From contig JBBFKT010000002.1 of NCBI GenBank assembly GCA_037482015.1, forward strand, positions 124,001-188,000: a stretch of DNA of 64,000 bases. Reading direction: 5' to 3'. The notes under the pieces are model-generated. The model was not told the DNA's origin and made no database searches. It saw only the letters and a list, made by a program, of their open reading frames with translations. Origin of the DNA: Thermodesulforhabdaceae bacterium (GTDB lineage: Bacteria; Desulfobacterota; Syntrophobacteria; Syntrophobacterales; Thermodesulforhabdaceae). Positions 22,499-45,734 of this stretch are shown piece after piece. Position numbers and translations under genes: made by a program. How positions within the stretch are numbered: position 1 is the stretch's first letter; every line of letters starts with the position of its first letter.

Positions 22499-22552
22499 AT
22501 AAAATAAGGCAGGTCTGAAACTCCTAAAGAATGGCATGAAGGGAGAATAAAT

Positions 22553-23359: not shown

Positions 23360-23380
23360 ATGTAAGGAGGCGAAAATCTA

Positions 23381-24550
23381 ATGGTGTTTGATAGAGCTAA
23401 TAGACTTAAGGAACTTCCTCCATACCTTTTTCAAGAACTGGATCGTATTAAGGCAGAAGTGCAGGCTCAAGGCGTTGATGTAATTGATTTAGGGGTGGGT
23501 GACCCGGATCTTCCCACACCATCTCACATTATTGAAGCACTTCGAGAAGCGGTCAAAGATCCTTCTACTCACAGGTATCCATCTTACTCCGGCATGAACG
23601 ATTTTAGGGATTGCGTAGCGAGATGGTATGAGAGACGATTTGGAGTCCAGCTCGAAGCATCTCGAGAGGTCATAACTCTTATCGGATCTAAGGAAGGCAT
23701 TGCCCATATGCCTCTCGCCTTTATTAACCTTGGTGATGTTGTGCTCGTTCCATCGCCAGCTTATCCTGTCTATCATGCTGGGACAGTGCTTGCCGGAGGA
23801 AAGTCTTACTTCATGCCGCTTACGGCGGAGCGGAATTTCCTCCCTGATCTCGATTCTATTCCGCCGTCGGTTGCTCAGCAGGCTAAGATGATGTTCATCA
23901 ACTATCCCAACAATCCAACCGGAGCCACAGCGGAAGCGGAGTTCTTTGAAAAGGTGGTTGCCTTTGCAAAAAAGTATGAAATTATCGTATGTCATGATGC
24001 TGCCTATTCGGAAATGAGTTTCGATGGGTATCGCCCCATGAGCTTCCTGGAAGTTAAGGGAGCAAAGGATGTGGGAATAGAGTTTCATTCGCTTTCTAAA
24101 ACCTACAACATGACCGGCTGGCGTCTCGGTTTTGCTGTGGGAAACAAAGAAGTTATTGGAGCTCTCGGGCAGGTAAAAAGCAATATAGACTCAGGAGCTT
24201 TCAATGCTGTGCAAAAAGCTGGTATTGTGGCTCTTGAAGGTGATCAATCCTGCGTTAAAGAAATGCAAAGAATTTACCAGGAGCGCCGTGATGTGCTGGT
24301 TGAGGGACTCCGTTCCGTTGGTTTGTCTCCTTTCGTTCCAAAAGCCACCTTTTACGTGTGGTGTCCTGTTCCCAAGGAAACTACATCCACAGGTTTTGCC
24401 ATGAAACTGTTGAAGGAGGCAGGTATCGTAACAACGCCAGGAAACGGTTTTGGAGAACCAGGAGAAGGATACATAAGAATGGCTCTTACGGTTACCAAGG
24501 AACGAATAAGAGAAGCAGTAGAACGTATTAGAAAAGTAGGAATACGCTAA
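23381..24550 (+). CDS. dapL: LL-diaminopimelate aminotransferase
   Basis: The protein has 389 residues, a class I/II pyridoxal-phosphate transaminase. The Schiff-base lysine is in [16 protein letters not shown], with [11 protein letters not shown] and the C-terminal [18 protein letters not shown] region. Its place directly after dapB identifies it as DapL, which converts tetrahydrodipicolinate to LL-diaminopimelate in one step and makes the succinyl or acetyl routes unnecessary. General aspartate-aminotransferase activity cannot be excluded from sequence. AAGGAGG precedes the start. Confidence 0.92.
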
Positions 24551-27433: not shown

Positions 27434-30034
27434 TTATTCAGATGGCATCCTTGATATTTCGGTAACATCGTAGATCTGGCGAATAAAAGCTTGAGCAACA
27501 ATTTCTATCATCGCTTCGGATGACATAAGCATATCCATCTGGCGGGTAAATTGCAGAAGTCGACCTATTTGATCGAGGTTTTCTTCTATGACAGAAGCAT
27601 CGTATTTCTGAAGTCTTCCTTCAACCCGGTCTGCAATTACTTCAATGGAAAAATTGAGTAGTTTGAGAATACGGGCGATGGCTCGAGCTCGCCTGTTTCT
27701 ACGCACATCGTCAGCCGCCCCTCCTTTGAATGAGAAAGTTATATAATTTTTATTAATGGTTTGTCCGCAATAGCTATCCAGCAAGGCAAAATGATAGCCG
27801 ACTCGAGAGCTAAAATGCAGATATTTGTCTGATATTATCGCATAGCTTTTATCCCCGAAGCGATCGGCAAGGTAAGGATTGGAGAGCATCTGTTCACTGA
27901 GAACGGAAAGAAAACCTCCAAATTCAATAGGCTTTAAGGCAGGTTTGACAAAAGCTTCGTGCAACATGCCTCTGAGAAGAGCTCTAAAGGGAGCAGAAGC
28001 CACAGCTTCAACAGGGACTTTGTCATTTTTTATCATTTCCGTTATAAGTCCTCCCCCGAGGTCAATGACGTAGAGGTTTAGAGGAATGAGAGCATCGAGA
28101 CGATAGGCGGCTCCTTCTTCATCGCTGAGAGCATCACTCAATCTGAACATTTCACCGTAGGATTTTTCATGGACAAATCGCATTATGTCGTGCAGAGTTT
28201 TGCATTCTTTCGCACAGAAGTTGGGAGCCTGGGGATCTATGAGATTTAGAGGCACTATAAAACGAGAAAGTCTTTCAAGTGACCGATATACTGGAGTGCC
28301 TTTCATAGGAGCATATACTCTGGATGCTTCAGATATTATGCTCTTTATGTGGTCTGGGAGTTCGCCTTTGTAAACCCTACCCTGAAAAGTATCAACCGTT
28401 ATTGTTTCTCCTTGTGGAATGATCTTGGTTGCAATTTTTGTATCCAGGAGAGTTGGAATTTTAAATTCTCGAGCTACGGACGCCATATGCCCTGTTATGC
28501 TTCCGGCATCGGTTACTATAGCGCTTATGCGATCCATGACGATAACGAATTTAGGCGAGGAATGGTGAGCAATAAGAACAGCCCCCTCTGGTATTTTGTA
28601 AAGATCTTCATCGGATTGGACGTGGAAGGCTAAGCCGCTTCCTATGCCGGGACATGCTATCGCGCCATCTGATATAAGCACTGGGTAATCGTCAGGAATA
28701 ACTATGGCTGGCATCTTTATGGATGACTCTACAAGCCGCAACGGTCTTGCTTGAAGAAGAACTATTTCGTTATCTGGTGTAAGTGCCCATTCTATGTCTT
28801 GATGGCAACGATAATGGGATTCTAATTTAAGAGCATATTCAGCCAGAAGACGGATATGGGATTCCTTGAGGCATGGCGAGAGCCTGAGATTTTCTTCGAC
28901 AGCCGCTTCCTGTAAACCGCCACTTGGATCCAGAACCTGTTTTACAGGTTTACATGAAATGTTTATTTCTGAGATGGTGAAATCTCTCCTTACTTTGTAA
29001 GTATCCGGAGAGACAACGCCGTCTACCACGTAAGATCCAAGCCCCCAGGCAGCGTTTATGACAATTTCGTCCTTGTCAGGATTTGACGGGTCTCTTGAAT
29101 AACAGACACCACTTGCCACGGCAGGTATCATTTCAAGACATCCGACACTCATAGCACAATCTCTGTCATCTATTCCCATGTGATATCGATAAGCCATAGC
29201 TCTGGGAGTATAAAGGCTTGCAATAACGTAGCGGTAAGATCTAAGCAGGCGTTCTCGGGGCACATTTAAAAGGGAGACATATTGACCAGCAAAGGATATA
29301 TCCCCATCTTCTCCTATGGCGCTACTTCGCAAAGCAACATTTATATCTGAACCCACGACGCTGACGAGATCTTCGTAAGCTTCAAGAATGTCCTGGGACA
29401 ATTCGAAAGGTATTTTGGATGCTATAATTTTTGCCTGGATTGCTTCACTCGATTCTCCGATGGACTGAGGATCCTGGAAATCAGTTTCCATAAGGATTTT
29501 GTTTATCTCACTTCGTAGGTCGTTTGCATCCATGAAGAAATGGAAAGCGTTGACCGTAATTGCAAAACCACGAGGAATTGGCAACCCAAGTTTTGTAAGC
29601 ATTTCGCCCAGGTTTGCATTTTTACCTCCAACTTTTTCGATAAGTTCGTAAGAGATCTGATTGTAAGGAAGAATCCAGGGTCTTTCACGCCCAGTTTCCT
29701 GATGTTCTTCCAGAACTTCTCTGATATTATTTTGAACAGTCTGATGAACATCATAAAGTTCAGGATAATTTTTATTGGAAAGGTCGTTCAATCGGTCAAT
29801 CATTCTTAGGCTGTGGAAAATAGCCCGAGTAGCCATCGATCGGACATTTGCCATACTGAACACAATTTTACCTTGAAGCTTATCCTCGATTTCAGCAATA
29901 ACCTTTGCCATTTCCGCGTTGGAATCAAGAAGCTCCTTGAAGTGCTGATACTTTATGCGAAACTTTTCAGTGATATCAGCTCTTTTTTGCTTTGATTTTC
30001 GAAATATCCTGGTTATCCATGATCTCACAGACAT
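27434..30034 (-). CDS. PEP-synthase-like ATP-grasp/His-swivel protein with novel C-terminal domain (paralogue 1)
   Basis: The protein has 866 residues. Residues 20-115 are helical and unfamiliar. Residues 130-435 match the ATP-binding PPDK/PEP-synthase domain (VALRSSAIGEDGDISFAGQY; DIEWALTPDNEIVLLQARPL). Residues 455-555 are the phosphohistidine swivel with GHMASVAREFKIP, the catalytic His being H516. From about 575 on, the usual PEP/pyruvate TIM barrel is absent. An unknown domain of roughly 290 residues replaces it, carrying CKTLHDIMRFVHEKSYGEMF and FKGGAADDVRRNRRA. It can probably autophosphorylate the His but should not make PEP. A close paralogue lies at 32767, beyond a divergently transcribed histidine kinase and a receiver. 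Confidence 0.85.
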   Translation of the reverse strand: MSVRSWITRIFRKSKQKRADITEKFRIKYQHFKELLDSNAEMAKVIAEIEDKLQGKIVFSMANVRSMATRAIFHSLRMIDRLNDLSNKNYPELYDVHQTVQNNIREVLEEHQETGRERPWILPYNQISYELIEKVGGKNANLGEMLTKLGLPIPRGFAITVNAFHFFMDANDLRSEINKILMETDFQDPQSIGESSEAIQAKIIASKIPFELSQDILEAYEDLVSVVGSDINVALRSSAIGEDGDISFAGQYVSLLNVPRERLLRSYRYVIASLYTPRAMAYRYHMGIDDRDCAMSVGCLEMIPAVASGVCYSRDPSNPDKDEIVINAAWGLGSYVVDGVVSPDTYKVRRDFTISEINISCKPVKQVLDPSGGLQEAAVEENLRLSPCLKESHIRLLAEYALKLESHYRCHQDIEWALTPDNEIVLLQARPLRLVESSIKMPAIVIPDDYPVLISDGAIACPGIGSGLAFHVQSDEDLYKIPEGAVLIAHHSSPKFVIVMDRISAIVTDAGSITGHMASVAREFKIPTLLDTKIATKIIPQGETITVDTFQGRVYKGELPDHIKSIISEASRVYAPMKGTPVYRSLERLSRFIVPLNLIDPQAPNFCAKECKTLHDIMRFVHEKSYGEMFRLSDALSDEEGAAYRLDALIPLNLYVIDLGGGLITEMIKNDKVPVEAVASAPFRALLRGMLHEAFVKPALKPIEFGGFLSVLSEQMLSNPYLADRFGDKSYAIISDKYLHFSSRVGYHFALLDSYCGQTINKNYITFSFKGGAADDVRRNRRARAIARILKLLNFSIEVIADRVEGRLQKYDASVIEENLDQIGRLLQFTRQMDMLMSSEAMIEIVAQAFIRQIYDVTEISRMPSE

Positions 30035-30230
30035 TTTTTGTATTCCTTCTCAAAATTAAGCGATTAAAATATAAATGATCTTCAATTTTCTATCGCCTTA
30101 CCAGGGTGATAGTATTGATGTAATAGACAAACACTTTTCAGGCAAAAATTATACCCATAATATTGGCATCTGGAGATATAAAAAAAGAAAGGTTGAAACT
30201 GTAGAATTCATAGTAATCTCAGTCTGCAAG

Positions 30231-30247
30231 TTTTACACGGTGTAAAA
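30231..30247. promoter_or_regulatory. Palindromic candidate operator upstream of the histidine kinase
   Basis: TTTTACAC-G-GTGTAAAA is a perfect 17-base inverted repeat in the 275-base (to the longest ORF start) divergent intergenic region between the first PEP-synthase-like gene and the membrane histidine kinase. It lies nearer the kinase. The symmetric layout suits a dimeric transcription factor. A related palindrome with TTTACA/TGTAAA half-sites and one base less spacing is at 40427-40442. The regulator is unknown. Confidence 0.4.
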
Positions 30248-30390
30248 ATATCAGACACACAGGGGGATAACCCTACCGAAAGAACCTATGGAAAGAGCAA
30301 GTTAAAATTATGAGATTTCGTGATGGCATAAGTATTGCTGAAGAAAAGGCATGGTATCCCTATGGTTTTGTAAAACGGGCAGGAGAGGGC

Positions 30391-32304
30391 ATGCACGAAC
30401 CGAGACACTACATCCAATTGAGAAATAGAATATTTCTGATTACGGTTTGCACGTCGCTTATTCCAATTGCTTTGGTTGCAATTATAAGCGGCTATCAATT
30501 TCACACGGCATATAAGTCTAAGACTTTAGCATACCTTTCAGAATATGTTCAGAAACACGCTCAAAACATAGATGCTTTTCTGGCTAATAATGTTGAAGCT
30601 GTAAAAATAATTGCTCAATCAAATAATATTGAACAACTAGGTAATCCTGATCATCTTAACAATCTCTTAAGGATCTTACAATCCACCAAAGAAGGAACGT
30701 TTGTCGATCTGGGGTTTATTAGAGATGATGGGTTTCAGATTTCCTACGCTGGTCCTTTTAAGTTTGGAATGGCGTTTTATGGAAGTTCCAAATGGTTTCA
30801 GCAAGCTCTTCAAAATTCCTATTATATCAGCGATGTATTTCTCGGTCTCAGAGGAATTCCCCATTTTGCTACAACGGTCAGGATAGAGGAGAAGGGCAGA
30901 TTTTGGGTCCTTAGAGCTACAATTGACTTTGCTACTTTCACAAAAGTTGTTGAAAACCTCAGGTTTGGAGAAACGGGGGAAGCTTTCATTTTGAATTATG
31001 ATGGTGAACTCCAAACTTCTATAAACCGCCCCTATCCTCGAGACCTTCTTCAGTCGATAATCAAAGTTGTTTTGTCAGGTCCGGCTACAATAATTGATGA
31101 ACACTATCTGGATATTCCGGTAGCTAGAGACATTGTCCGAGAAGATGTAACTATGGTGCAAGATGGCTCACTTGTGAGGCTTTTTACCAAAAAGACTTTT
31201 GATGGAAAAAATATGATCTATGTAGCTGTTCCCCTTAAAACGGCTCGATGGATTCTGATTTATACTCAGTGGGATCAAGAAGTTTTTAAGGAAATTATCA
31301 AAGCCAGAGTAGCAGTCATTGCTGTTAGTGTTTTGTGTAGTATTGCCTTTGCCATTCTTAGCTGGCGATTCGCAAACCATTTTGTAGAGCGAATCAAAGA
31401 AGTCGATAGAGAAAAAGACATTATGAACGAACAGATCATTGAGGCAGGGAAATTAGCTTCTCTTGGCGAACTGGCTGCAGGTATTGCCCACGAAATAAAC
31501 AATCCTGTGGCTATAATGGTTGAGGAAGCCGGATGGATTGAGGACTGTCTCAAGGACCTGCCAGATCAAAACTCGGAAATCTACGAAGAGATCGCCAGAT
31601 CCGCTAAACAGATAAAAATTCAGGGTTCTCGTTGTAAAGAGATCACCTACAAACTTTTAACCTTTGCCCGACGAACGGATTCAGGGGAAAAGCGAGTTTC
31701 ACTAAACGATCTACTAAAAGAATTGGCGCCACTTTGTGAGCAGCGTGCACGTTATGCCAGAGTTAAAGTAGAACTGAAACTCGAAAGAAGTCTTCCCGAT
31801 GTTGCTCTGTCTGCAACGGAAATGCAGCAAGTTATATTCAATCTAGTCAACAATGCTATTGACGCCATGGAAGTTCAGGGGGGCGGTGTTCTTACTATGT
31901 CCACAAAATTGGTTAATGATTGGGTCGTATTGGAGGTCTCCGACACGGGGCCAGGCATTCCCAAGTCGATTTTTCCTCGTATATTTGAACCTTTCTTTAC
32001 CACAAAACCGGTTGGTAAAGGCACTGGTCTCGGGCTGCCTATCTGCTACGGAATTATAAAAAAAGCGGGGGGAAATATTGAGGTTGAAAGCGAACTCGGA
32101 AGGGGAACAACCTTCAGAGTATGGTTGCCTCCAGTGGAAACCCCAACAAAGCTTATAGTCGGCGCCCTTCCTGAAATCGTAGTCCTAACCGGTGATAGGA
32201 GTTCATCCCCAAAAGAGCATGTGGAACAACTTCTAGAGAATCAGAATGATGAAGTGGCTGGAGAAAAAGCATCCGCACCGAATAAACGATCATCCAAACT
32301 GTAG
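30391..32304 (+). CDS. Membrane sensor histidine kinase
   Basis: The start at 30391 has AGGAG five bases upstream. An ATG at 30310 would add 27 residues without a good ribosome site. In the longer numbering, membrane segments are at 39-61 and 336-357, flanking a periplasmic dCache-like sensor of about 270 residues. The H-box GIAHEINNPVA has the phosphorylated H394. N, G1 and G2 boxes are intact (VNNAIDAM; VSDTGPGIP; GKGTGLGLPI). The class resembles NtrB-like kinases. It lies upstream of a single-domain receiver and between the two PEP-synthase paralogues, with which it probably works. The ligand is unknown. Confidence 0.92.
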   Translation: MHEPRHYIQLRNRIFLITVCTSLIPIALVAIISGYQFHTAYKSKTLAYLSEYVQKHAQNIDAFLANNVEAVKIIAQSNNIEQLGNPDHLNNLLRILQSTKEGTFVDLGFIRDDGFQISYAGPFKFGMAFYGSSKWFQQALQNSYYISDVFLGLRGIPHFATTVRIEEKGRFWVLRATIDFATFTKVVENLRFGETGEAFILNYDGELQTSINRPYPRDLLQSIIKVVLSGPATIIDEHYLDIPVARDIVREDVTMVQDGSLVRLFTKKTFDGKNMIYVAVPLKTARWILIYTQWDQEVFKEIIKARVAVIAVSVLCSIAFAILSWRFANHFVERIKEVDREKDIMNEQIIEAGKLASLGELAAGIAHEINNPVAIMVEEAGWIEDCLKDLPDQNSEIYEEIARSAKQIKIQGSRCKEITYKLLTFARRTDSGEKRVSLNDLLKELAPLCEQRARYARVKVELKLERSLPDVALSATEMQQVIFNLVNNAIDAMEVQGGGVLTMSTKLVNDWVVLEVSDTGPGIPKSIFPRIFEPFFTTKPVGKGTGLGLPICYGIIKKAGGNIEVESELGRGTTFRVWLPPVETPTKLIVGALPEIVVLTGDRSSSPKEHVEQLLENQNDEVAGEKASAPNKRSSKL

Positions 32305-32331
32305 ACATGGTTAGCCAAAGGAGAAGACCTG

Positions 32332-32736
32332 ATGCAGCCCTTCGAAAAAACCGAAAAGATGGCACCCCTCAAACTTCTTATTGTGGACGATGAAGTAGCT
32401 TATGTCGATGTGCTTCGAAGAAGAATGGAAAAACGCAACCTTAAGGTTGAAGCGGCCCATAGTGGGGCAGAAGCTATTAGAAAATTAAGAGGAGATTTCT
32501 TTGATATAGCCATCATCGATCTTAAGATGGAAGACATGGATGGTCTGGAAGTGCTTAAGATTTTCAAAAAAATGGATCCCGACATGCCTGTCATCATCGT
32601 AACCGGACATGGTTCAGAACAAGCTGCGAGGGACGGTATAGCCCATGGTGCCTATGACTACCTAATGAAGCCTTGTGATTTCGAAATTTTGATGGAAAAG
32701 ATACAAGAAGCTGCAAGAGCCAGACAATCCGACTAA
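32332..32736 (+). CDS. Stand-alone response regulator receiver
   Basis: The protein has 134 residues and consists only of a CheY-like receiver. The acidic pair is D19-D20 (LLIVDDE), the phosphoacceptor D63 in IIDLKMEDMDG, the Thr in VIIVTGHGSE and the lysine in YLMKPCDFE. There is no DNA-binding or enzymatic output domain, so it acts by protein contact or as a relay intermediate. AGGAG precedes the start. It sits between the membrane histidine kinase and the second PEP-synthase-like gene, making one of these a likely partner. Confidence 0.93.
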   Translation: MQPFEKTEKMAPLKLLIVDDEVAYVDVLRRRMEKRNLKVEAAHSGAEAIRKLRGDFFDIAIIDLKMEDMDGLEVLKIFKKMDPDMPVIIVTGHGSEQAARDGIAHGAYDYLMKPCDFEILMEKIQEAARARQSD

Positions 32737-32766
32737 GTTAACAAAAATAACTGGTAAGGGGTTGCT

Positions 32767-35397
32767 GTGGAATTTCTAAAAAAGCTGTTCAATAATTTTC
32801 GCAAACAGGAAAAACATCATCATAGCCCAGAAGAACTTAGACTTATTTTTCAAAATAGATACCATAATTTTAAGCTTCTTTTAGGAGCAAACAATAGAGC
32901 TCTAGAAATAATGACCGAAATTGAGGAGATGCTGAGAGGCGACAAGCCCTTCGGGATGACTTTTATCCGCTCTCGTGTAACTAGAGTAAGTGCAAACGTG
33001 TTTCAAATGATTCAATATCTCAACGAACTCTCCTCTAGAAGATACGAAAAACTCTATCCCAAATTCCGCGAGATCGAAAAATCCATTAGTCAACTTATAG
33101 AACCCAAAATAACTCTTACTGGCGCACCACTCGTAATGCCCCTGGACTACATAAGTCGCGACTCTTCTGACCTTGTTGGTTCAAAAATGGCTAATTTAGG
33201 TGAACTTAAACACGTTCTGGGGCTTAATGTGCCCGATGGATTCGCTATTACAGTAGAAGCTTACCGAAAATTCTTAATTGAGACGGATCTATTTTCCGAA
33301 ATAAACCGTTTACTTCAAAAAACAGTAACCGAAGACATAAGTGATTTTTTTGCTTTGAGCTCAGCAATACAGCAACTTATTGTTAATACTCCCATTCCCG
33401 ATGATCTCGAAGAGGCTATAATATGCCAAATAGATGAATTGCTTCAAAAACATGGATCTTCTGTAACTTTTGCCATTAGAAGTAGTGCTCTTGGCGAAGA
33501 CTTCCTAGGCCATTCCTTTGCGGGTCAGTATAGATCAATTCTTAATGTTCACCCCGATCATGTGATTCAAGCATACAAAGAAGTTGTTGCCAGCATGTAT
33601 GGTCTTCCAGCTATGACTTATCGTTTTCGCCACGGAATTCGAGATGAAGATATAGCCATGAGCGTAGGATGTCTTGTGATGATCGATCCAGTGGCATCAG
33701 GTGTGGTTTATACCAGAAATCCCATAAGTCCCGATGAAGAAAGCCTCTTGGTCCACTCTGTTTGGGGATTACCCAAGCCTGTGGTCGATGGTTCTCTGGA
33801 TCCGGACATCTTTATCATTTCCCGGCATGAACCATTTGATTTGCTCACTCAAAACATAGCCATTAAGGATGTTGCTTTTATTCCTCTTGAGGAGGAAGGA
33901 GTTGTTCGAGCGGAAATGCCGCCTCACCAATGGGAAATGCCATCCCTTACAGAGTCACAACTCAAACTCCTTGCCAGTATTGTTATCAGTATAGAACGTC
34001 ATTACGGAGTGCCCCAAGATATTGAATGGGCTTTAACATCACATGATCGGTTTGTGATTCTTCAAACCCGCCCTCTAAACCTTCAATTGCCAAAGCCTTC
34101 AGAAGAAAGATTAAAAATTTTGGAGCCTTCGCCTGCCGAGGAGGTTATTCTTAAAGGTGGAGTAACGGCGAGCCCTGGTGTAGCTTCTGGTAAAGTGTTT
34201 GTTATCAAACGAGATGCCGATGCTCTCAGGTTTCCAGAAGGATCTGTGCTGGTTACAGAACTCGCTCTTCCTAGATGGGCATCTCTTCTAGGACGTGCCT
34301 CTGCTGTTGTTACGGAGGTTGGGAATGTTGCCGGACATCTTGCTAACGTGGCGAGAGAATTTAAGATTCCAGCTATATTTGGTCTTAGCGGTGCTACTAG
34401 ATCACTTAAAGAAGGTGATGAAATTACCGTAGATGCTAACAGAAGGCTTATTCTTAAAGGACTTAACGCTGTGCCTTCACAAGATCTCAACCAGGCGGAT
34501 CTAATAATGGTTGACACTCCGGTATACAAGACCCTTTACGAGACATCACGATTCATAGTTCCTTTGCATCTTCTAGATCCGGATTCTATCGATTTCAAAC
34601 CAGAAAAGTGCAAAACTTACCACGACATTACTCGCTTCTGCCACGAAATGTCCGTAAGAGAAATGTTTCGATTCGGCAGAGAGTTTAAATTTGCGGAGAA
34701 AGCAGCTAAACGACTCATAAGTGAAAGAAAAATGCAGTTTTGGATCCTAGATCTTGACGATGGTTTTCATCCGGGGACGGTTTCTCCGGAAGATAAATAC
34801 GTGCGTATTGAAGATATAGCTTCCATACCGATGAAAGCTCTGTGGGAAGGTATGATGGCTGTGCCATGGAGTGGTCCTCCACCTATAGAAACCAAAGGGT
34901 TTTTGTCCGTATTGGCAGAATCCACTCTGAATCCTAATCTGGATCCGGCCGTCTCCTCTTCAATGGCAGTAAAAAACTATTTCATGATCTCGCGAAACTT
35001 CTGTTCTCTTCAGTCCCGCTTTGGTTACCACTTCTCGGAAGTTGAAGCTCTGGTTAGCGAAAGGACCAGAGAAAACTATGTTAGCTTTCATTTCAAAGGT
35101 GGAGCTGCCAGTATAGACCGACGAATCCTTCGAGCAAAATTTATAGCCTTGCTCCTCGATCTATGGATGTTCCGTTGTACCTTAAATGGAGACGCTCTTT
35201 CTGCAAGAATAGAAGGTAGAAATGTCGAAGAGATGAAAGACGTTCTGCGATTGATCGGGTACATCATTATTCATACTCGCCAGCTAGACATGGTCATGAC
35301 GGATCCTCAATCGGTCGCTTATTACCGGGAAAAGATGCTCGCCGACATCCGGAAACTTTGCAAGGTCTTTTTGCCGGACATAGAGGGGGTTGAGTAA
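32767..35397 (+). CDS. PEP-synthase-like ATP-grasp/His-swivel protein with novel C-terminal domain (paralogue 2)
   Basis: The protein has 876 residues and starts at a GTG with AAGGGG upstream. It has the same plan as the divergently encoded paralogue. Residues 20-115 are helical. Residues 125-440 are the PPDK/PEP-synthase ATP-binding domain (FAIRSSALGEDFLGHSFAGQ). The swivel at 465-560 carries H524 in GHLANVAREFKIP. The same unfamiliar C-terminal domain lies from about 590, with CKTYHDITRFCHEMSVREMF and NYVSFHFKGGAASIDRR. The PEP/pyruvate barrel is absent. It lies directly after the receiver gene and before a soluble histidine kinase. A phosphoryl-transfer role toward an unknown acceptor is inferred; ordinary PEP synthase is unlikely. 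Confidence 0.85.
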   Translation: MEFLKKLFNNFRKQEKHHHSPEELRLIFQNRYHNFKLLLGANNRALEIMTEIEEMLRGDKPFGMTFIRSRVTRVSANVFQMIQYLNELSSRRYEKLYPKFREIEKSISQLIEPKITLTGAPLVMPLDYISRDSSDLVGSKMANLGELKHVLGLNVPDGFAITVEAYRKFLIETDLFSEINRLLQKTVTEDISDFFALSSAIQQLIVNTPIPDDLEEAIICQIDELLQKHGSSVTFAIRSSALGEDFLGHSFAGQYRSILNVHPDHVIQAYKEVVASMYGLPAMTYRFRHGIRDEDIAMSVGCLVMIDPVASGVVYTRNPISPDEESLLVHSVWGLPKPVVDGSLDPDIFIISRHEPFDLLTQNIAIKDVAFIPLEEEGVVRAEMPPHQWEMPSLTESQLKLLASIVISIERHYGVPQDIEWALTSHDRFVILQTRPLNLQLPKPSEERLKILEPSPAEEVILKGGVTASPGVASGKVFVIKRDADALRFPEGSVLVTELALPRWASLLGRASAVVTEVGNVAGHLANVAREFKIPAIFGLSGATRSLKEGDEITVDANRRLILKGLNAVPSQDLNQADLIMVDTPVYKTLYETSRFIVPLHLLDPDSIDFKPEKCKTYHDITRFCHEMSVREMFRFGREFKFAEKAAKRLISERKMQFWILDLDDGFHPGTVSPEDKYVRIEDIASIPMKALWEGMMAVPWSGPPPIETKGFLSVLAESTLNPNLDPAVSSSMAVKNYFMISRNFCSLQSRFGYHFSEVEALVSERTRENYVSFHFKGGAASIDRRILRAKFIALLLDLWMFRCTLNGDALSARIEGRNVEEMKDVLRLIGYIIIHTRQLDMVMTDPQSVAYYREKMLADIRKLCKVFLPDIEGVE

Positions 35398-35418
35398 TAG
35401 TTAAATGGAGGAGTAGAA

Positions 35419-36669
35419 GTGGCCAAAAATCAAGTTACGCTTTTGTTCGACCAAATGGTGGAGGAGGATAAAAGTTTCAGCCGTCTTATCGCTCTTAGCG
35501 ATTTCCTTTCTCAACCGAAAACTCTTCGAGAGTTACTAGATGGCAGTCTCCAGGTTATCCTTCGAGAATTTGATCTAGATGCAGGACGAATATACCTCTT
35601 CGACTCAGTCAGTGGCGACTTCTGCCTTATTACCCATTACGGACTTGATGTTTCGGGGCTTGAGCGAGTCAAGATAGGACAGGGTTTTACAGGGAAAGCG
35701 GCCGAACTCCGTTCCTTTATTGCCTACAGAGTGGAAGACCTTGAAGACAGGGTCAGATCCCAATTTCTTCAGAGCAAGGGACTTAAAATTGTTTATTGTG
35801 TTCCCTTCGTCGTTCTTGGAAAAGTCGAAGGGGTTATGAATCTTGGTTCAACAAAAGACATAATGCTTTCAGTTCAGGATATGAAAACCCTTTTTATTAT
35901 GGGACATCAAATAGGACTCGTTGTGGCCTATGCACGACTTAATGAAGTTCTCAATGAAAGAATCAATCTTTTAGAAAGTAGGAAAGAAACCATAAAATTT
36001 TTTGCCTATTCCATAAGTCACGACCTCAAAAGCCCTGCTGTAGGACTCTACGGTCTAACCAAAAGACTGGTTGAAAAATACGGCGATGGGCTTGCCGAAA
36101 AAGGAAAGCTTTACTGTCGTCAGATTATGAAAGCAGCAGAAGAGATTGTTAATCTTGTGGAATGTATCAACGGTTACATTTCTGCCAGAGAATCCATTGA
36201 AGAGCCCCAGAATTTCCCTCTCTCCGATATTATTGAAAGCATTAAATCGGAATTCAAGAGCAGGCTGGAAAACCAAAATGTCACACTTGAGGTTCAAAAC
36301 AATCTTCCTGTAATTCGCGGCTATCCTCACCTACTTCTTAGAGCCATGAGAAATCTCGTGGATAATGCTCTTAAACACGGAGGCCAGATGTTATCTCACA
36401 TAAAAATCGAAGTAGAAGAAAAACCAGATTTTTGGGTCATAGCTGTTCACGATAACGGAAGCGGCATTCCCTCACATATGCTTGAAACTATATTTGATCC
36501 ATTTAGAAGGGGGAAAACCAAAGCGGAAGGCTCTGGACTTGGACTTGCTATCATTTCCGAGGTGGCAAAAAAACACGGAGGTAAAGCGTGGGTTGAATCC
36601 TTTCCAGAAAAACGCGACACAACTTTTTACATTTCTATCAGCCGCTGCTGTATGAAAAGGATAATCTAA
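35419..36669 (+). CDS. GAF-domain soluble histidine kinase
   Basis: The protein has 416 residues and starts at a GTG with GGAGG upstream. There are no membrane segments. A GAF sensor domain covers about residues 25-175 and is followed by a coiled linker. The dimerisation H-box is YSISHDLKSPAVGLYG with H201, and the ATPase domain has N (DNALKHGG), G1 (DNGSGIP) and G2 (GSGLGLAI) boxes. The GAF ligand is unknown. There is no receiver in the protein; the stand-alone receiver two genes upstream could be its partner. It follows the second PEP-synthase paralogue by 21 bases and precedes the CoA-ligase/GNAT gene. Confidence 0.92.
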   Translation: MAKNQVTLLFDQMVEEDKSFSRLIALSDFLSQPKTLRELLDGSLQVILREFDLDAGRIYLFDSVSGDFCLITHYGLDVSGLERVKIGQGFTGKAAELRSFIAYRVEDLEDRVRSQFLQSKGLKIVYCVPFVVLGKVEGVMNLGSTKDIMLSVQDMKTLFIMGHQIGLVVAYARLNEVLNERINLLESRKETIKFFAYSISHDLKSPAVGLYGLTKRLVEKYGDGLAEKGKLYCRQIMKAAEEIVNLVECINGYISARESIEEPQNFPLSDIIESIKSEFKSRLENQNVTLEVQNNLPVIRGYPHLLLRAMRNLVDNALKHGGQMLSHIKIEVEEKPDFWVIAVHDNGSGIPSHMLETIFDPFRRGKTKAEGSGLGLAIISEVAKKHGGKAWVESFPEKRDTTFYISISRCCMKRII

Positions 36670-36709
36670 AGGATTTCTTACACAACGAAAATCCTGGAGG
36701 TCATAAGAC

Positions 36710-39457
36710 ATGGGACTTAAGGGACTTGATGCGATTTTTAGACCTCAAAGTGTAGCTGTAATAGGAGCTACAGAACGGGAAGGTGCAGTAGGAAAAGCAG
36801 TTATGAAAAATCTTCTGGAATCTCAATTTCCTGGTCCTATATATCCCATTAATCCCAGAAGAAAAGAAGTGAATGGCATTAGGTCATTTCCTTCTGTAAA
36901 GGAAATAGGAAACGCGGTAGATCTTGCAGTTATTGCTATCCCGATCGAAGAAGTGCCCGAAGTGTTAGAAGATTGTGGATATGCGGGGGTTAGAGGCGCC
37001 ATAATTCTTTCGGCTGGTGGAAGGGAAACCGGTAATGACGGGCTATTAATTGAAAAACGTATAGAAGAGGTGGCTCAATCTAAGGGTATTAGAATTATAG
37101 GTCCGAATTGTCTCGGAATTATTTGCCCTGAACGCCATCTTAATGCAAGTTTTGCTTCTCATACGCCGCCATCTGGACGCCTGGCTTTTATTTCCCAGAG
37201 CGGAGCCCTGTGCACTGCCATTCTAGATTTAGCTGTGGAAGAAAAGATAGGCTTTAGCTATTTCGTGAGTATTGGCTCCATGCTCGATGTCGATTTTGGA
37301 GATCTTATCGATTACTTCGGTAACGATCCCAAGGTAAGCAGTATTATCATCTATATGGAAGGGCTTACTAATTTAAGAAAGTTTATGAGCGCTGCAAGAG
37401 CAGTATCGAGAGCGAAACCAATCGTTGTTCTCAAAGCAGGAAGAAGCCAGGCCGGAGCTAAAGCTGCTTCTTCTCACACGGGAGCTATGACAGGAGAAGA
37501 TGCTCTATACGATGCAGCCTTTGAACGAGCCGGTATTGTGAGAGTGAGAGAGATCGGAGAACTTTTCGCATGTGCCGAACTGCTTGCAAAACAGCCTCGT
37601 CCTTCAGGTCCCAGGATGGTTGTTATAACCAATGCTGGAGGCCCAGGCGTGATGGCGGCTGATGCAATATCTGATGCTGGACTAGAGTTGGCAGAACTTA
37701 GTGTTGAAACTATGGAAAAGCTCAACAGTATTCTGCCTCGATGCTGGAGCCACGGGAATCCAGTGGACATCCTTGGAGATGCTACCCCTGAACGCTACGT
37801 CCAGGTAATTCAGACCTGTCTTGGTTCTCCAGATGTCAATGGCGTTCTTGTAATATTAACTCCTCAGGCAATGACTGATCCTGTCGCTGTTGCCGAAGCT
37901 TTTGCTAAAGCCGTAATTAAGCGTCCTATGCCCGTTCTAGCCTGCTGGATGGGCGGTCACGATGTTACTCCTGCGAGATCAATTCTAAACAAAGCTAGTA
38001 TTCCCACTTACGAAACTCCCGAAGAAGCTGTTCAGGCTTTTAAATACCTCTACGACTACGCAAAAAATCTGGAAGCTATACAGCAAATACCCTCGAGATT
38101 TTCAAGGTCTCTTCTTTTCGATAGAAATAGTGCAGATAAGATCATTGAAGATGCTATTTCCCAAAATGATGGTAGGCTGGGGGAATGGAGCTCGATGGCT
38201 CTTCTTCGCGCTTACGGATTTCCTGTCAACAATGTAGAACTTGCTAGAACCAAGGAAAAGGCTTTGCAGATCGGGAAGAAAATGGTCATGCCGCTCGTGA
38301 TGAAGATCGCTTCCCCCGATATTCTTCACAAAACCGAAGCAGGTGGGGTCAGACTTAATATATCGTCCGAGGAAGACATCGCAGAGGCTTTTGACAGCAT
38401 AATTGCTTCTGCTAAGGCATACATGCCAGATGCTAGAATTGACGGCGTGACTATGCAAAGTATGATTGTAGAGCGCGATTACGAACTACTTATTGGAGCG
38501 AAGCAAGATTCTCTTTTTGGTCCTGTTGTGGTCTTCGGATGGGGTGGAATCTTTGCAGAGGTGCTTAAGGATCGTGCTATAGGTATTCCTCCGCTTAATC
38601 GGGCTCTGGCTAGCCTGATAATAGAAAAAACCCGTGTGTCAAAGCTTTTGAAGGGATATAGGGGACTCCCGCCGGCCGATCTTGAACTTATAGAGGAACT
38701 TCTGATCCGACTTGCCAATTTGGTAACCGATTTCCCCGAAATACAGGAACTCGATATGAATCCTGTACTTATACAGAAAGGAAAGCCGATTATTGTCGAT
38801 GCTAGAATTATTTTAAAACCGTCGGAAACCAAACCTCCCATGCATCTTATTATAAGCCCTTACCCCAACCAATATGAATGGCATCTGAAGGCAGCAGAAG
38901 AAATACGAATTTTTGTTCGTCCTGTGCGTCCCGAAGATGCGCCTCTTTTCGAGGACCTTTTTAAGGTGCTTTCACCTACAAGTGTATATTTTCGGTTTTT
39001 TCACCCAATGAAAGCTTTGCCCCATTCTCTGCTTGTGAGATTTACTCAGATTGATTACGACCGAGAGATTGCCCTTGTAGCTATAGACGAAGATAGCCCT
39101 GAGGAACGAATGTTGGGAGTGGCTAGAGTGATCTCCGGACCTGACAAAGAGGAAGCTGAGTTTGCTATTTTGGTAGGGGATCCATGGCAGGGCAAGGGCA
39201 TTGGAGCGGCACTCCTGAGAAAGTGCCTTCAGATTGCCAAAGAAAGAGGCATAAAACATGTGTTTGGCATAGTGTTGCCGGAGAACACTCAAATGCTTGC
39301 TCTTGGTAAAAAGCTAGGTTTCCGCATTTCACATTCTGGGGGAGAATGCGAATTGAGGATAAATTTGGAGAAGATTTCTTTCGAGGAACTAAACGGTTCT
39401 AACCAGGCAAAAAAGGAGAATAGCTATGGAAATGAGGCAGATTCTTGTGGCGGTTGA
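36710..39457 (+). CDS. ADP-forming acyl-CoA synthetase-like protein fused to GNAT acetyltransferase
   Basis: The protein has 915 residues. The N-terminal CoA-binding and ligase domains (1-440) are those of NDP-forming acetyl-CoA synthetases. An ATP-grasp domain (about 470-700, with HKTEAGGVRLNI) and a C-terminal GNAT domain (about 735-895, with QGKGIGAALLRK) follow. This is the plan of the lysine acetyltransferase Pat/PatZ. The position equivalent to the phosphorylated His of active synthetases is kept (H256 in KAASSHTGAMTGED), so both CoA-ligase and acetyltransferase activity are possible. It ends 32 bases inside the universal stress protein gene. Confidence 0.9.
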   Translation: MGLKGLDAIFRPQSVAVIGATEREGAVGKAVMKNLLESQFPGPIYPINPRRKEVNGIRSFPSVKEIGNAVDLAVIAIPIEEVPEVLEDCGYAGVRGAIILSAGGRETGNDGLLIEKRIEEVAQSKGIRIIGPNCLGIICPERHLNASFASHTPPSGRLAFISQSGALCTAILDLAVEEKIGFSYFVSIGSMLDVDFGDLIDYFGNDPKVSSIIIYMEGLTNLRKFMSAARAVSRAKPIVVLKAGRSQAGAKAASSHTGAMTGEDALYDAAFERAGIVRVREIGELFACAELLAKQPRPSGPRMVVITNAGGPGVMAADAISDAGLELAELSVETMEKLNSILPRCWSHGNPVDILGDATPERYVQVIQTCLGSPDVNGVLVILTPQAMTDPVAVAEAFAKAVIKRPMPVLACWMGGHDVTPARSILNKASIPTYETPEEAVQAFKYLYDYAKNLEAIQQIPSRFSRSLLFDRNSADKIIEDAISQNDGRLGEWSSMALLRAYGFPVNNVELARTKEKALQIGKKMVMPLVMKIASPDILHKTEAGGVRLNISSEEDIAEAFDSIIASAKAYMPDARIDGVTMQSMIVERDYELLIGAKQDSLFGPVVVFGWGGIFAEVLKDRAIGIPPLNRALASLIIEKTRVSKLLKGYRGLPPADLELIEELLIRLANLVTDFPEIQELDMNPVLIQKGKPIIVDARIILKPSETKPPMHLIISPYPNQYEWHLKAAEEIRIFVRPVRPEDAPLFEDLFKVLSPTSVYFRFFHPMKALPHSLLVRFTQIDYDREIALVAIDEDSPEERMLGVARVISGPDKEEAEFAILVGDPWQGKGIGAALLRKCLQIAKERGIKHVFGIVLPENTQMLALGKKLGFRISHSGGECELRINLEKISFEELNGSNQAKKENSYGNEADSCGG

Positions 39458-40397
39458 TGTATCGGAGTGGGCTTACCGGGTAGTGGAGTATGTTGGAAAG
39501 ATGCTGGGAAATGATGGCAGAGCTTCTATTAGGATTCTTCACGTTATGAGTCCACTCCCGGAAAGCTTTTGGGACATCGAAAGTAGCCCCCTTACCACTT
39601 ATAGACCAGATATGATGCAGGCATGGGACGTAGCACAGCGCAAGGCAGTAGAAGCGGAAATGGAAAAGCTCGCGGAAATACTGGTCAAACACGGCATTCC
39701 GCGAGATAAAATCACTATCTCGGTGCAGCAGCGCCAGGTGGGTATCGCTCGGGACATTGTTTTTGAAGCTCAAAAGGGCTACAATGCGCTTGTTGTCGGG
39801 CGCCGAGGAGCAAGTAGGCTAAAAGAACTCATCATTGGAAGCATTGCTTCTAAAATTCTATCCAGACTGACCAATGTTCCCCTATGGGTCGTGGGCGAAC
39901 AGGCAGGAGACAAAGGTATAGTTATTGGTCTGGATCCTTCGGCGGAAGCGATGAAAGCTGTTCAGTATGTAGCTTCTATGCTTGGAGGAAAAGATAGACC
40001 GGATTTAAAAATCCATCTTGTTCATGTGGTCAGAGCCTTGGAGCTTCTGACTGTAAGTTATGATCCTTTCTTTGTGCCTGATGAACGGGTGGAATGGATG
40101 AGGCGGGTAGAGCAGCAACAGATGGAAGAAGTTCGAGCCAGAATGGGAGAAGTGTTTGAAAATGCTAAGGATATTCTGGAAAATGCCGGCATCAGGTATA
40201 AACAGATTGAAGCAAATATTATTTCGGGCGCCTACAGCAGGGCTGCTACTATAGTGGAAGAAGCTCGAAAACGCCAGTGTGGAACAATAGTTGTGGGGCG
40301 ACGAGGGCTTTCAAAAATTGAGGAATTTTTCCTGGGAAGGGTCGGTAGCAAGGTGCTTCAGTTAGCCGCAGACAAGACTGTGTGGATCGTGCCGTAG
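39426..40397 (+). CDS. Tandem universal stress protein (two UspA domains)
   Basis: The protein has 323 residues and two UspA domains (about 1-155 and 158-323). Each has the nucleotide-binding G-x2-G-x9-G pattern, VVGRRGASRLKELIIGS and VVGRRGLSKIEEFFLGR, though the second lacks the Ser/Thr after the last Gly. ATP or AMP binding is therefore likely in the first domain. It overlaps the CoA-ligase/GNAT gene and ends the signalling cluster. In this context it may report adenylate state to the kinases or the acetyltransferase; this is inference only. Confidence 0.92.
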   Translation: MEMRQILVAVDVSEWAYRVVEYVGKMLGNDGRASIRILHVMSPLPESFWDIESSPLTTYRPDMMQAWDVAQRKAVEAEMEKLAEILVKHGIPRDKITISVQQRQVGIARDIVFEAQKGYNALVVGRRGASRLKELIIGSIASKILSRLTNVPLWVVGEQAGDKGIVIGLDPSAEAMKAVQYVASMLGGKDRPDLKIHLVHVVRALELLTVSYDPFFVPDERVEWMRRVEQQQMEEVRARMGEVFENAKDILENAGIRYKQIEANIISGAYSRAATIVEEARKRQCGTIVVGRRGLSKIEEFFLGRVGSKVLQLAADKTVWIVP

Positions 40398-42458: not shown

Positions 42459-42514
42459 GGAATAACCCTCTCAAGTTTTAATGTTATGAAGAGCGCTCAA
42501 AAGGAGTTTTGCCG

Positions 42515-44119
42515 ATGAATGCTATCGATTATAGATTGTCTTACGAATATTCACCCTTGGTAGTGGAAGAACCATTCATTCTTGATAAACCAAGTTTACA
42601 AAATAACACTGCCGATTGGGATCGATTAATAAAGCATTTAAATAAAGCAGGGTTTGAACCTTTAACCTTGCAAGGAATATCCTTTGAAAGATTCAAAAGG
42701 CTATCTGAACAGGTTAGAAGAAACAATTTCGAGGGGCGAGCAATTCTCGCTTATATTAAAAGCGGCTGGGATATCCTGGACGTTACTGAAAATCCTCAAC
42801 CTGGATCAACAAATTCAGGACCTTTCGGAACCGCCTTTGACCTTGGGACGACAAGAATTGCCTTTTATCTTGTAGATCTTTCCACTGCTAAAGTGCTTTA
42901 TGAGACATCCATAGCTAATCCTCAAATCCCCTTTGGTGAAGACATTTTGAGCCGTATTCATTACGCATCCAGTGAGGAAAAACTTAAAGAACTTCAGAGG
43001 CTCCTCATCAACGCCTTCAATGATGTAATAGAAAAAGTATCGAAAGAACTTAGTTTGTCACCAAATCGCATTTACGCCATGACCGTTGCTGGGAACACGA
43101 CCATGAGCCACTTTTTTCTTGGGCTTAACCCTTCCCACATTTGTCGAGAACCCTACATACCTGTAGCAAACACTTTTCCGATCTTTCGAGCTCGACACCT
43201 GGGGTTAAAGATACATCCGGATGGCATAGTCTATGTCTTTCCTAATGTTGGTTCCTATTTTGGCGGTGACGCCGTCGCCGGAATCATAGCTTCTGGTATG
43301 CACCAAAGTGAAGCCATATCGCTTCTGGTGGATGTGGGAACAAACGCTGAAGTGGTGCTTGGAAATAAGGATTGGCTTATAGCCTGTGCGGGTGCCGCGG
43401 GACCTGCTCTTGAGGGAGGGGTAGTAGAGAGAGGCATGATGGCGGCACCGGGAGCAATCGATCGAGTCCGCATCAATCCTGAGACTCTGGAGCTTAACTA
43501 CCATACCATTGGTGATCAAAAACCTATAGGAATATGTGGGTCGGGGCTAATTGATTTAATTGCCGAAATGTTCCAGGCAGGGTTTCTAACCATTCAGGGA
43601 AAGATTAACACCAGGTTAAAAAATCCCAGAATCGTAAATACTCCTGACGGAACAGGCTTTGTTGTCGCCTTTGCGGATGAAACTGCCGACAGTAAAGACC
43701 TTATTATAACCGACATAGATATCGGTATTCTCCTCAAATCCAAAGCGGCGATGTATACTATATTAAACATCATTGCCCGCAAAGTCGGCATCGATGTCCG
43801 TGATATTGACAAGTTTTATGTAGCTGGGACCTTTGGCAATCATATCGATCCTCAAATGGCTATTCGAATTGGTATGCTTCCTGACCTGCCAATTGACAAA
43901 TTCGTTCCCATGGGAAACACATCAGGAAAAGGAGCTTCGATGCTCCTTCTCAACCGAAATCTCTTTAAGGATATTGAAGAAATATGCGATAAAATAACTT
44001 ACGTAGAGCTTAACGTTAACGTTGAGCTAATTCATGAATTTAGAGGAGCTCTCTTTCTGCCCCATACCGATCCGTATCTTTTCCCTTCAGTTAGAATACC
44101 AGAAATAGCCAAGGGATAG
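42515..44119 (+). CDS. RACo-like ASKHA-domain ATPase lacking the 2Fe-2S domain
   Basis: The ATG at 42515 was chosen, with AAAAGGAG eight bases upstream. The 534-residue protein matches reductive activators of corrinoid proteins (RACo, DUF4445). A middle domain (about 10-105, with PSLQNNTADWDRL) and the C-terminal actin-like ATPase domain (FGTAFDLGTTRIAFYLVD; LLVDVGTNAEVVLG; FYVAGTFGNHIDP) are present. The N-terminal ferredoxin domain, with its four-cysteine cluster, is missing. It may receive electrons from a separate ferredoxin such as the nearby DUF362 protein, but no corrinoid protein or methyltransferase gene is nearby. Confidence 0.85.
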   Translation: MNAIDYRLSYEYSPLVVEEPFILDKPSLQNNTADWDRLIKHLNKAGFEPLTLQGISFERFKRLSEQVRRNNFEGRAILAYIKSGWDILDVTENPQPGSTNSGPFGTAFDLGTTRIAFYLVDLSTAKVLYETSIANPQIPFGEDILSRIHYASSEEKLKELQRLLINAFNDVIEKVSKELSLSPNRIYAMTVAGNTTMSHFFLGLNPSHICREPYIPVANTFPIFRARHLGLKIHPDGIVYVFPNVGSYFGGDAVAGIIASGMHQSEAISLLVDVGTNAEVVLGNKDWLIACAGAAGPALEGGVVERGMMAAPGAIDRVRINPETLELNYHTIGDQKPIGICGSGLIDLIAEMFQAGFLTIQGKINTRLKNPRIVNTPDGTGFVVAFADETADSKDLIITDIDIGILLKSKAAMYTILNIIARKVGIDVRDIDKFYVAGTFGNHIDPQMAIRIGMLPDLPIDKFVPMGNTSGKGASMLLLNRNLFKDIEEICDKITYVELNVNVELIHEFRGALFLPHTDPYLFPSVRIPEIAKG

Positions 44120-44126
44120 AGTTCCT

Positions 44127-44423
44127 ATGAAAGATTGGCTGAACGTTCGAGTTTTATTTTGGGCTGCGGCTGCAATAATAATCGCTCTGCTTTTTTACGG
44201 CATTTTCTCATCTCCCACCGGCATAAAAGGATATTTAAACAAGAAGAACCAGATCGCTATCATTAATAAAAACATTGAAAACATAGCAAAAGAAAATGAA
44301 CAACTGTATAAATCCATTAAGCAGTTTAAGGATAATCCCGAGAGTCGAAAAAAAATGATTCGACACCAGCTTGGCTGGATCGAAGAAGGGGAACGGAAGG
44401 TCGTGTTTATACCTCAGCAATAA
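44127..44423 (+). CDS. FtsB/DivIC-like septum protein
   Basis: The protein has 98 residues. A short cytoplasmic tail, a membrane segment at about 8-27 (VLFWAAAAIIIALLFYGIF) and a coiled coil (about 38-72, NQIAIINKNIENIAKENEQL) are visible, followed by a short C-terminal part ending IEEGERKVVFIPQQ. This is the DivIC/FtsB plan, where the protein forms a divisome complex with FtsL and FtsQ. The usual neighbour eno is not here; instead it follows the RACo-like ATPase by seven bases. The divisome call rests on topology and a weak family resemblance. Confidence 0.75.
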   Translation: MKDWLNVRVLFWAAAAIIIALLFYGIFSSPTGIKGYLNKKNQIAIINKNIENIAKENEQLYKSIKQFKDNPESRKKMIRHQLGWIEEGERKVVFIPQQ

Positions 44424-44446
44424 CAACTCCAAGAAGGAGGGACAGA

Positions 44447-45487
44447 ATGGACTACAATAAGGTTTTTATGGTGAAGTGGGACCCTTTTTCAAACATGCTC
44501 AGAAAAGCCAAAAAGCTTTATGAAAAAGCCGGAGTTTTCGATGTGGTAGAAAAGGGCGACCTCGTAGCCGTCAAGCTGCATGTTGGCGAATTGGGCAATC
44601 CAAATTACATTCGTCCATTTTTCGTAAAACAAATTATGGATGAAGTGCGCGAGAGGGGAGGAAAACCCTTTCTGACAGACACAACAACCTATTATCCTGA
44701 GATGAGATCGAACGGATACGACCATTACGAAAATGCTGTTGCTAATGGTTTTGGCTTTGGACACTTTATTAACGCTGACGGACTGAAGGGCGGCTATGTA
44801 GTACCAATTTCCACGGGATCCGAGCTTATCAAGGAGATAGAAGTTGCAGGAGCTCTATACGAAGCCGATGCCATGATAGTAGTAACGCATGTTAAAGGAC
44901 ATCCTCTTTCGGGTATCGGTGGTGCTATAAAAAATTTAGGCATGGGGGGAGTTTCTAAAAAATCCAAACTGGATCAACACAGGCTCGTGGACATGGAACT
45001 TAATACTGAAAAATGCCAGGGCTGTGGAGCCTGTAGAGAAGCCTGCAGGATGAAGATTCCAGTGATTGATCCAGAAAAAAATGTGGTTGTCATAGATGAT
45101 CCAGCGTGTATGAGATGCCCCATCTGCGCTCAAGCCTGTCCTGAAGGAGTTATAACACTAATAGGTAAAGAACGCCTGTGTAAAGGGTTAGCTCTGGCTG
45201 CTAATGCGGTCTTAAATACATTTAAACCCGGCAAAGTAGCTTTCATCAATTTCGCCGTCTCGCTTAGCACAATCTGCGATTGTGGACCGGTGCAGGCAGA
45301 AATAATCGGTCCCGATGTGGGAATTTTTGCCGGATTTTCAGCCATCTCTGTTGACGCAGCCAGCTTTTCATCTATAGATCATAAACGACTAAACGAACTT
45401 CATGATACCGATGCATGGGAACAGATAAGATCTTTGAAGGAACTTGGTTATCCAGGATCCGACCCTCCTGAAATTGTCATCGTTTAA
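44447..45487 (+). CDS. DUF362 domain protein with two 4Fe-4S clusters
   Basis: The protein has 346 residues. A DUF362 domain (about 20-170) is followed by two 4Fe-4S motifs, CQGCGACREACRMKIP and CMRCPICAQACPEG. AAGGAGG precedes the ATG. The family appears in anaerobes as a redox or maturation protein of unknown function. It can accept electrons through the clusters. It follows a RACo-like ATPase that lacks its own ferredoxin, so electron supply to that protein is a reasonable but unproven idea. It starts 23 bases after the FtsB-like gene and is probably its operon partner. Confidence 0.9.
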   Translation: MDYNKVFMVKWDPFSNMLRKAKKLYEKAGVFDVVEKGDLVAVKLHVGELGNPNYIRPFFVKQIMDEVRERGGKPFLTDTTTYYPEMRSNGYDHYENAVANGFGFGHFINADGLKGGYVVPISTGSELIKEIEVAGALYEADAMIVVTHVKGHPLSGIGGAIKNLGMGGVSKKSKLDQHRLVDMELNTEKCQGCGACREACRMKIPVIDPEKNVVVIDDPACMRCPICAQACPEGVITLIGKERLCKGLALAANAVLNTFKPGKVAFINFAVSLSTICDCGPVQAEIIGPDVGIFAGFSAISVDAASFSSIDHKRLNELHDTDAWEQIRSLKELGYPGSDPPEIVIV

Positions 45488-45578
45488 TTAGGATACATAG
45501 TTTCCATCGCTTCTATATATAAGGGTAGATGGAAGGATTAACATTAGCTCCTTTCACCTACCCAATTATGTTAAACGA

Positions 45579-45696: not shown

Positions 45697-45734
45697 GGGT
45701 ATAATTCTTCCTTTCGGGAGGTTTCAAAAGAACC

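Follow-up and report, generated by a model that had tools for sequence, protein, structure and literature searches.

Two paralogous proteins, PepA and PepB, encoded in a 64,000-nucleotide stretch of DNA from a Thermodesulforhabdaceae bacterium (contig JBBFKT010000002.1, positions 124,001 to 188,000; hereafter the window), were assigned by sequence to an uncharacterised ATP-grasp/His-swivel family, named "PepX" here. PepX is almost confined to bacteria that carry dsrA, a gene of sulfite reduction, and its probable role is to help control the uptake of sulfur compounds. The preferred reading, which was judged to be evenly balanced between true and false, is that PepX is a receiver-controlled, dikinase-type effector regulating sulfur-oxyanion transport in dissimilatory sulfite/sulfate reducers. 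The strongest partners of the family, TauE/SafE and Na+/sulfate-type transporters, and its co-occurrence with dsrA lay outside the view of an initial annotation made from the window sequence, which had described a phosphotransfer signalling cluster.

Open reading frame (ORF) calling located all seven genes of that cluster at 27434-40397, and Pfam searches confirmed the domains assigned to them. PepA (866 aa, 27434-30034, reverse strand) lies on the strand opposite to that of the other six genes and falls in the subfamily A clade of the PepX tree. PepB (876 aa, 32767-35397, forward strand) belongs to subfamily B, and its AlphaFold2 model had a mean predicted local distance difference test (pLDDT) score of 84.4. 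The two proteins were 38% identical over 844 alignment columns, N- and C-terminal parts free of Pfam matches included. PPDK_N (ATP-grasp) and PEP-utilizers (phosphohistidine swivel, mobile or His domain) were detected in both. PPDK_N was located at aa 133-434 of PepA (28733-29638, 7.9e-94) and the swivel at aa 481-552 (28379-28594, 4.7e-18), with His516 aligned to His524 of PepB. The ATP-grasp domain of PepB spans aa 121-442 (33127-34092, 4.7e-87, structural match Z ∼40) and is followed by the swivel at aa 455-575 (34129-34491, 3.4e-18), with the catalytic His524 encoded at 34336-34338. The N-terminal region of PepB (aa 1-117, 32767-33117) was modelled as helices 21-55, 64-88 and 96-111 and had no Pfam match above cut-off. 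ATP-site residues K140, R238, E244, E420, Q433 and R435 (PepB numbering) and the swivel His524 were invariant among 62 relatives, and His524 was kept in 98.7% of 150 PepX members from all subfamilies.

The best NCBIfam matches of both paralogues were phosphoenolpyruvate (PEP) synthase models, which favours ordinary PEP synthases with a role in gluconeogenesis or carbon control. These matches ended at the swivel domain, and the two paralogues scored 366/342 bits against NF005057 (cut-off 598) and 350/340 bits against TIGR01418 (cut-off 739.75). PEP-utilizers_C, the PEP-binding barrel, was absent from both proteins in Pfam searches. The rifampin phosphotransferase model NF041857 gave 212 and 259 bits (cut-off 999). 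The PepB model matched rifampin phosphotransferase with Z 40.4 over 426 residues and PEP synthase structure 2ols with Z 39.5; both matches spanned residues 118-568 only, i.e. the first two domains. The swivel comes directly after the ATP-grasp domain, with no rifampin-binding domain between them. Relatives also have, at separate loci, PEP-synthase-like genes that lack the C-terminal domain of the family; these were used as a control. Annotation as PEP synthase was rejected on domain content and on scores below the curated cut-offs, and such a function is regarded as very improbable. The initial annotation, which stood or fell with the paralogues being something other than ordinary PEP synthases, was borne out on this point.

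A conserved C-terminal domain of ∼300 residues stands where the PEP-binding barrel would be (PepB aa 578-876, 34498-35394; PepA 27437-28315, alignable). It had no significant Pfam match in either protein. Folded alone, the C-terminal ∼300 residues of PepB gave a mean pLDDT of 81.0. A profile search of the domain against PDB sequences returned nothing below E 0.27, and Foldseek gave no convincing fold (best E 0.023, TM 0.20). The best VIA-align match was the T4 MotA C-terminal domain (Z 5.5, 105 residues, root mean square deviation 4.1), which is within the range of common arrangements. The fold was not identified from the model, and this was not taken as proof of a new one. H626, G695, H755, N770, G778, G779, R789 and D841 were kept in 150/150 PepX members. 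The family was defined by PPDK_N, the swivel and a C-terminal domain with H619, D620, H626, H755, N770, GG778-779, R789 and D841, all of which were found in PepA and PepB. Such a pattern, with about ten H/R/D/N/G residues nearly invariant, suggests an acceptor domain for catalysis or ligand binding. Among tandem copies, L116, L138, L146 and L194 (triplets) had lost ATP-site residues but retained swivel His and C-terminal domain. Copies L193 and L195 lacked the swivel His as well as the ATP site and again kept the C-terminal domain, which is therefore the part least free to change. Some copies lacking the ATP site could thus be phosphorylated only in trans, and trans-phosphorylated or sensor-only versions may exist. 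One PepX protein (L147:8156-11338, genome G034) carried a C-terminal extension of ∼190 residues that was weakly lectin-like (Glyco_hydro_59_C, below cut-off).

The PepX C-terminal domain was found in 89/247 genomes (about a third) spread over the phylum of the window, and dsrA in 122/247. Both were present in 84 genomes, corresponding to 84/89 of those with PepX and 84/122 of those with dsrA (Fisher p 3e-29). All 75 high-quality PepX genomes of this phylum carried dsrA, and the five PepX genomes without it were at most 80% complete. The window genome itself (2.7 Mb, 95% complete) carries dsrA. In a second phylum, that of Nitrospirae genome G295, dsrA was present in 49/55 PepX genomes vs 38/143 others (p 4e-16). 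Further PepX genomes, among them metagenome-assembled genomes (MAGs) labelled Myxococcota, carried dsrA in 11/12 cases.

Neighbourhoods were compared using a scan of GTDB genomes that yielded 399 stretches encoding a PepX relative. The best 80 were B-type, mostly from Desulfobacterota or Deltaproteobacteria records. Around these 80 the recurring genes were receivers (57 loci), a TauE/SafE permease (50), M231 (47), a dCache kinase (42), a GAF kinase (29) and a Na+/sulfate-symporter-type protein (16), and no pathway enzyme recurred. M231 is a conserved 231-residue membrane protein with no Pfam or NCBIfam match. The usual B-type order was HK1-RR-RR-RR-TauE-M231-PepB (HK, histidine kinase; RR, receiver). 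A dCache kinase, a receiver and a GAF kinase are also present in the window cluster. HK1 (30310-32304, forward strand) is a membrane histidine kinase with a dCache sensor (Pfam dCache_1, HisKA and HATPase_c). It is followed by a lone receiver without output domain (32332-32736, forward strand; Pfam Response_reg only), which has a phospho-Asp63 and the catalytic Lys. HK2 (35419-36669, forward strand) is a soluble histidine kinase with GAF_2 and HATPase_c domains. HK1 with HisKA/HATPase and a receiver with phospho-Asp have the domains expected of a two-component system. Among receivers linked to PepX, the phospho-Asp (Asp63) was kept in 204/207 and the Lys in 206/207.

Genomes contain many kinases and receivers, tens of candidates each, which would allow a chance collection of abundant signalling genes. 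Background rates came from 20-kb windows, 30 in all, placed mechanically in the genomes of six relatives, and loci were chosen by PepX and not by neighbours. The 39 B loci were those with full flanks; they were chosen by similarity to the window copy and are hence not independent. A lone receiver lay within 5 kb of PepX in 39/39 B loci and 48/57 loci of relatives vs 1/30 random windows and 0/10 true PEP synthases. The corresponding counts were 36/39, 32/57, 1/30 and 0/10 for TauE, and 34/39, 40/57, 5/30 and 1/10 for a histidine kinase. For 14 of the 16 genomes with both genes on the same contig, counted by hand, the best HK1 orthologue lay no more than 5 kb from PepB; the distances in the remaining two were 25.6 kb and 330 kb. 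A chance grouping is hard to credit against these controls. The clustering of such genes in related genomes, which the initial annotation had anticipated, was confirmed by the locus comparisons and random windows. One cluster, from Syntrophobacterales bacterium SKW214 (L034), was a gene-for-gene counterpart of that in the window, with 79% identity to the PepB C-terminal domain. At another locus (L046:6441-7658) a receiver fused to a cytidylate-kinase-like domain adjoined PepB.

A tree of 150 PepX members resolved clades that each had their own partner genes. Subfamily B is accompanied by HK1, receivers, TauE and M231, and subfamily A, often near B, has its own kinase and receiver. Subfamily C is found with a shorter TauE, Alph_Pro_TM, a receiver and universal stress protein (Usp) genes, and subfamily D with a dual-specificity phosphatase (DSP), a receiver, a kinase, a PhnD-type binding protein and TauE. 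The window genome also encodes a third paralogue, PepC, on contig C3 (L134/L269, G000:C3) together with TauE, Alph_Pro_TM (TIGR02186-like), a receiver and several Usp genes, ∼15 kb from dsrA. Its B set is split, with an RR-RR-TauE-M231 block on contig C1 at ∼249.4-252.6 kb (L268, G000:C1:241000-260999, 8391-11609). At L131:8013-11789 (genome G008), PepX, a DSP and a further cysteine-containing C-terminal stretch form one ORF of 1259 codons.

Loci of subfamily D were present in 16 genomes of a Desulfovibrio MAG's family, with the order TauE-x-PhnD-HK-RR(∼119 aa)-PepX-DSP and each part in most loci. Their domain content was checked on L188 and L187. By sequence annotation this order equals that of the nitrate cluster DVU0251-DVU0245 of D. 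vulgaris, which comprises TauE (DVU0251), DVU0250, PtxB (DVU0249), a kinase pseudogene (DVU0248), a receiver gene of 360 bp (DVU0247), a protein with PPDK_N and mobile domains (DVU0246) and a phosphatase (DVU0245) (PMC4001038). Growth of D. vulgaris with insertions in DVU0246, 0247, 0250 or 0251 was the same whether or not 100 mM nitrate was present, and the DVU0245 insertion mutant was still nitrate-sensitive (PMC4001038). In D. alaskensis (Dde_0597-0605), disruption of every cluster gene in Table 3 of that report gave an advantage with nitrate (PMC4001038). The D. alaskensis mutants were also mildly impaired on thiosulfate (unpublished data cited in PMC4001038), and leaky entry of nitrate via a thiosulfate transporter was suggested by the authors (PMC4001038). 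Because mutants of TauE, receiver and PepX had the same nitrate phenotype, the three belong to a single pathway, at any rate within subfamily D. Neither TauE nor PEP synthase is named in the main text of the 2023 mutant atlas of D. vulgaris. Literature searches for the PepX family or a dsrAB link returned only the nitrate-cluster paper (PMC4001038) and general surveys.

As a receiver-controlled effector, PepX would act in the following manner. The dCache kinase HK1 (and HK2) would sense a ligand and phosphorylate the lone receiver, which, having no DNA-binding output, would bind PepX and switch it. PepX would take a phosphoryl group from ATP onto the swivel His (His524 in PepB), which would swing it to an acceptor held by the C-terminal domain, either a small molecule or a transporter-associated protein. 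The phosphorylated acceptor would set the activity of TauE/SafE-family and similar permeases, for which sulfur oxyanions of the sulfate, sulfite or thiosulfate class are candidate substrates. The DSP, present in one subfamily and fused to PepX once, would reverse the phosphorylation. The direction of control and of phosphotransfer, what serves as acceptor and which ion is transported are all proposed here by inference.

Several points weigh against this mechanism. No biochemistry was found in the literature for any PepX member. No permease adjoins the cluster in the window, the RR-RR-TauE-M231 block being on another contig, and loss of the ATP site in some tandem copies suggests that not all copies need function in phosphotransfer. 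DVU0246 was placed in PepX by inference from the order of the genes and the domains annotated; with 744 aa it is shorter than the D-type proteins of ∼820 aa. The phosphatase data of the two Desulfovibrio strains conflict (PMC4001038). The tests of co-occurrence with dsrA are uncorrected for shared ancestry, each of the two phylum samples held 38 dsrA genomes without PepX, and dsrA alone would be no proof of sulfite reduction over oxidation.

The main rival to control by a receiver casts PepX as a dikinase of small molecules in metabolism, similar to rifampin phosphotransferase, HpeHI or phenylphosphate synthase. PepX would then phosphorylate an imported compound bound by its C-terminal domain, and kinases and receivers would only set when it is made or active. 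Rifampin phosphotransferase and PEP synthase are the nearest matches to the first two domains, the invariant H/R/D/N residues of the C-terminal domain resemble a substrate site, transporters adjoin PepX, and two-component small-molecule dikinases exist (PMC12167813). Set against this, the receivers beside PepX must act on a protein because they are without DNA-binding output, several paralogues occur per genome, each with its own receiver, and a phosphatase is fused to one PepX. No pathway enzyme recurs in the neighbourhoods. A metabolic dikinase is considered fairly unlikely.

PepX might instead be a phosphodonor to receivers, passing phosphate from ATP through the swivel His to the receiver Asp and bypassing the histidine kinase. 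Such His-to-Asp transfer is normal chemistry for histidine phosphotransfer (HPt) proteins. A receiver adjoined PepX on the same strand within 300 bp for 29/83 and 38/77 PepX genes, and the receivers keep Asp and Lys. This route leaves without a role the C-terminal domain, which in tandem copies is better conserved than the ATP site, and most clusters contain histidine kinases that would be sufficient alone. To our knowledge there is no precedent for a PEP-synthase-type His feeding a receiver, and the phosphodonor role is considered quite improbable. Direct exchange of phosphate between the ATP-grasp/His-swivel protein and CheY-like receivers in either direction, with ATP driving the receiver or the receiver draining the phosphohistidine without a classical histidine kinase, is given the same low credence. 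If true, two-component signalling would have a second route of phosphate entry, one found specifically in dissimilatory sulfite reducers.

The description as a phosphotransfer signalling cluster was upheld in part. The conserved tie of an ATP-grasp/His-swivel protein to kinases and receivers, and the single phenotype of TauE, receiver and PepX (PMC4001038), support it. The proposed reporting of energy or acetyl-CoA state is not supported because it rested on the CoA-ligase/GNAT and Usp proteins, which are both accessory. The former (36710-39457, forward strand) is an ADP-forming acyl-CoA synthetase-type protein fused to GNAT (Pfam ATP-grasp_5/Succ_CoA_lig/CoA_binding and GNAT; TIGR02717 above cut-off). 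The latter (39426-40397, forward strand) is a tandem universal stress protein with two Pfam Usp domains. CoA ligase-GNAT was within 5 kb in 9/83 B-type loci and Usp was near B in 21/83; both were rejected as core parts because only a minority of loci had them. Usp was near PepX in 8/39 and 16/57 loci vs 1/30 random windows. The CoA ligase retains SHTGA, the motif that surrounds the usual catalytic His in ADP-forming acyl-CoA synthetases, and may for this reason be an active enzyme and not a sensor alone. The flanks of the cluster are ordinary, with lysine/diaminopimelate genes, an aminotransferase and a transaldolase upstream (19433-24550) and a RACo-type corrinoid activator, a DUF362 ferredoxin protein and a thiamine pyrophosphate enzyme downstream (42509-47447). 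A role in anti-phage defence was rejected as PADLOC gave no match.

The building blocks (dikinase superfamily, two-component systems and TauE/SafE permeases) are known. The PepX family was unnamed, its C-terminal domain unrecognised and its link to dsrA unreported in the literature searched. The statement in the initial annotation that it knew of no defined system composed in this way needs qualification, as a mutant phenotype has been reported for a sister cluster in Desulfovibrio. With its own kinases, receivers and permeases and a presence in roughly one in three sampled genomes of the phylum, PepX is a strong candidate for a control role, and it adds a new type of acceptor domain to the dikinase superfamily. 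It also bears on the control of souring by nitrate, because sensitivity to nitrate in Desulfovibrio is determined by the sister cluster.

Among known systems, the Desulfovibrio nitrate cluster shares with D-type loci TauE, a PhnD/PtxB-type protein, a histidine kinase, a lone receiver of ∼119 aa, a PPDK_N and swivel protein and a DSP (PMC4001038). In the window cluster, PepX of subfamilies A and B is accompanied by a dCache kinase, a GAF kinase, CoA ligase-GNAT and Usp; TauE, PhnD and DSP are absent, and the order TauE-x-PhnD-HK-RR-PepX-DSP is not found in it. Rifampin phosphotransferase has the same ATP-grasp and phosphohistidine swivel domains. In PepX the swivel comes directly after the ATP-grasp, the third domain is C-terminal and unrelated in sequence, and the setting is one of signalling and transport. 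PEP synthase (pyruvate, water dikinase) and pyruvate phosphate dikinase also have an ATP-grasp domain and then a swivel, with PEP-utilizers_C in the position taken in PepX by the family-specific domain. Phosphotransferase system Enzyme I has a swivel-type phosphohistidine domain (Z ∼15 over 110 residues). PepX, unlike Enzyme I, draws on an ATP-grasp domain in place of PEP, and its neighbourhoods showed no genes for HPr or EII. The HpeHI and phenylphosphate synthase dikinases resemble PepX in the recruitment of ATP-grasp and His-swivel domains to a new acceptor domain (PMC12167813). In those enzymes the ATP-grasp and swivel are on two proteins and the substrates are phenolic (PMC12167813), whereas PepX is a single chain encoded beside receivers.

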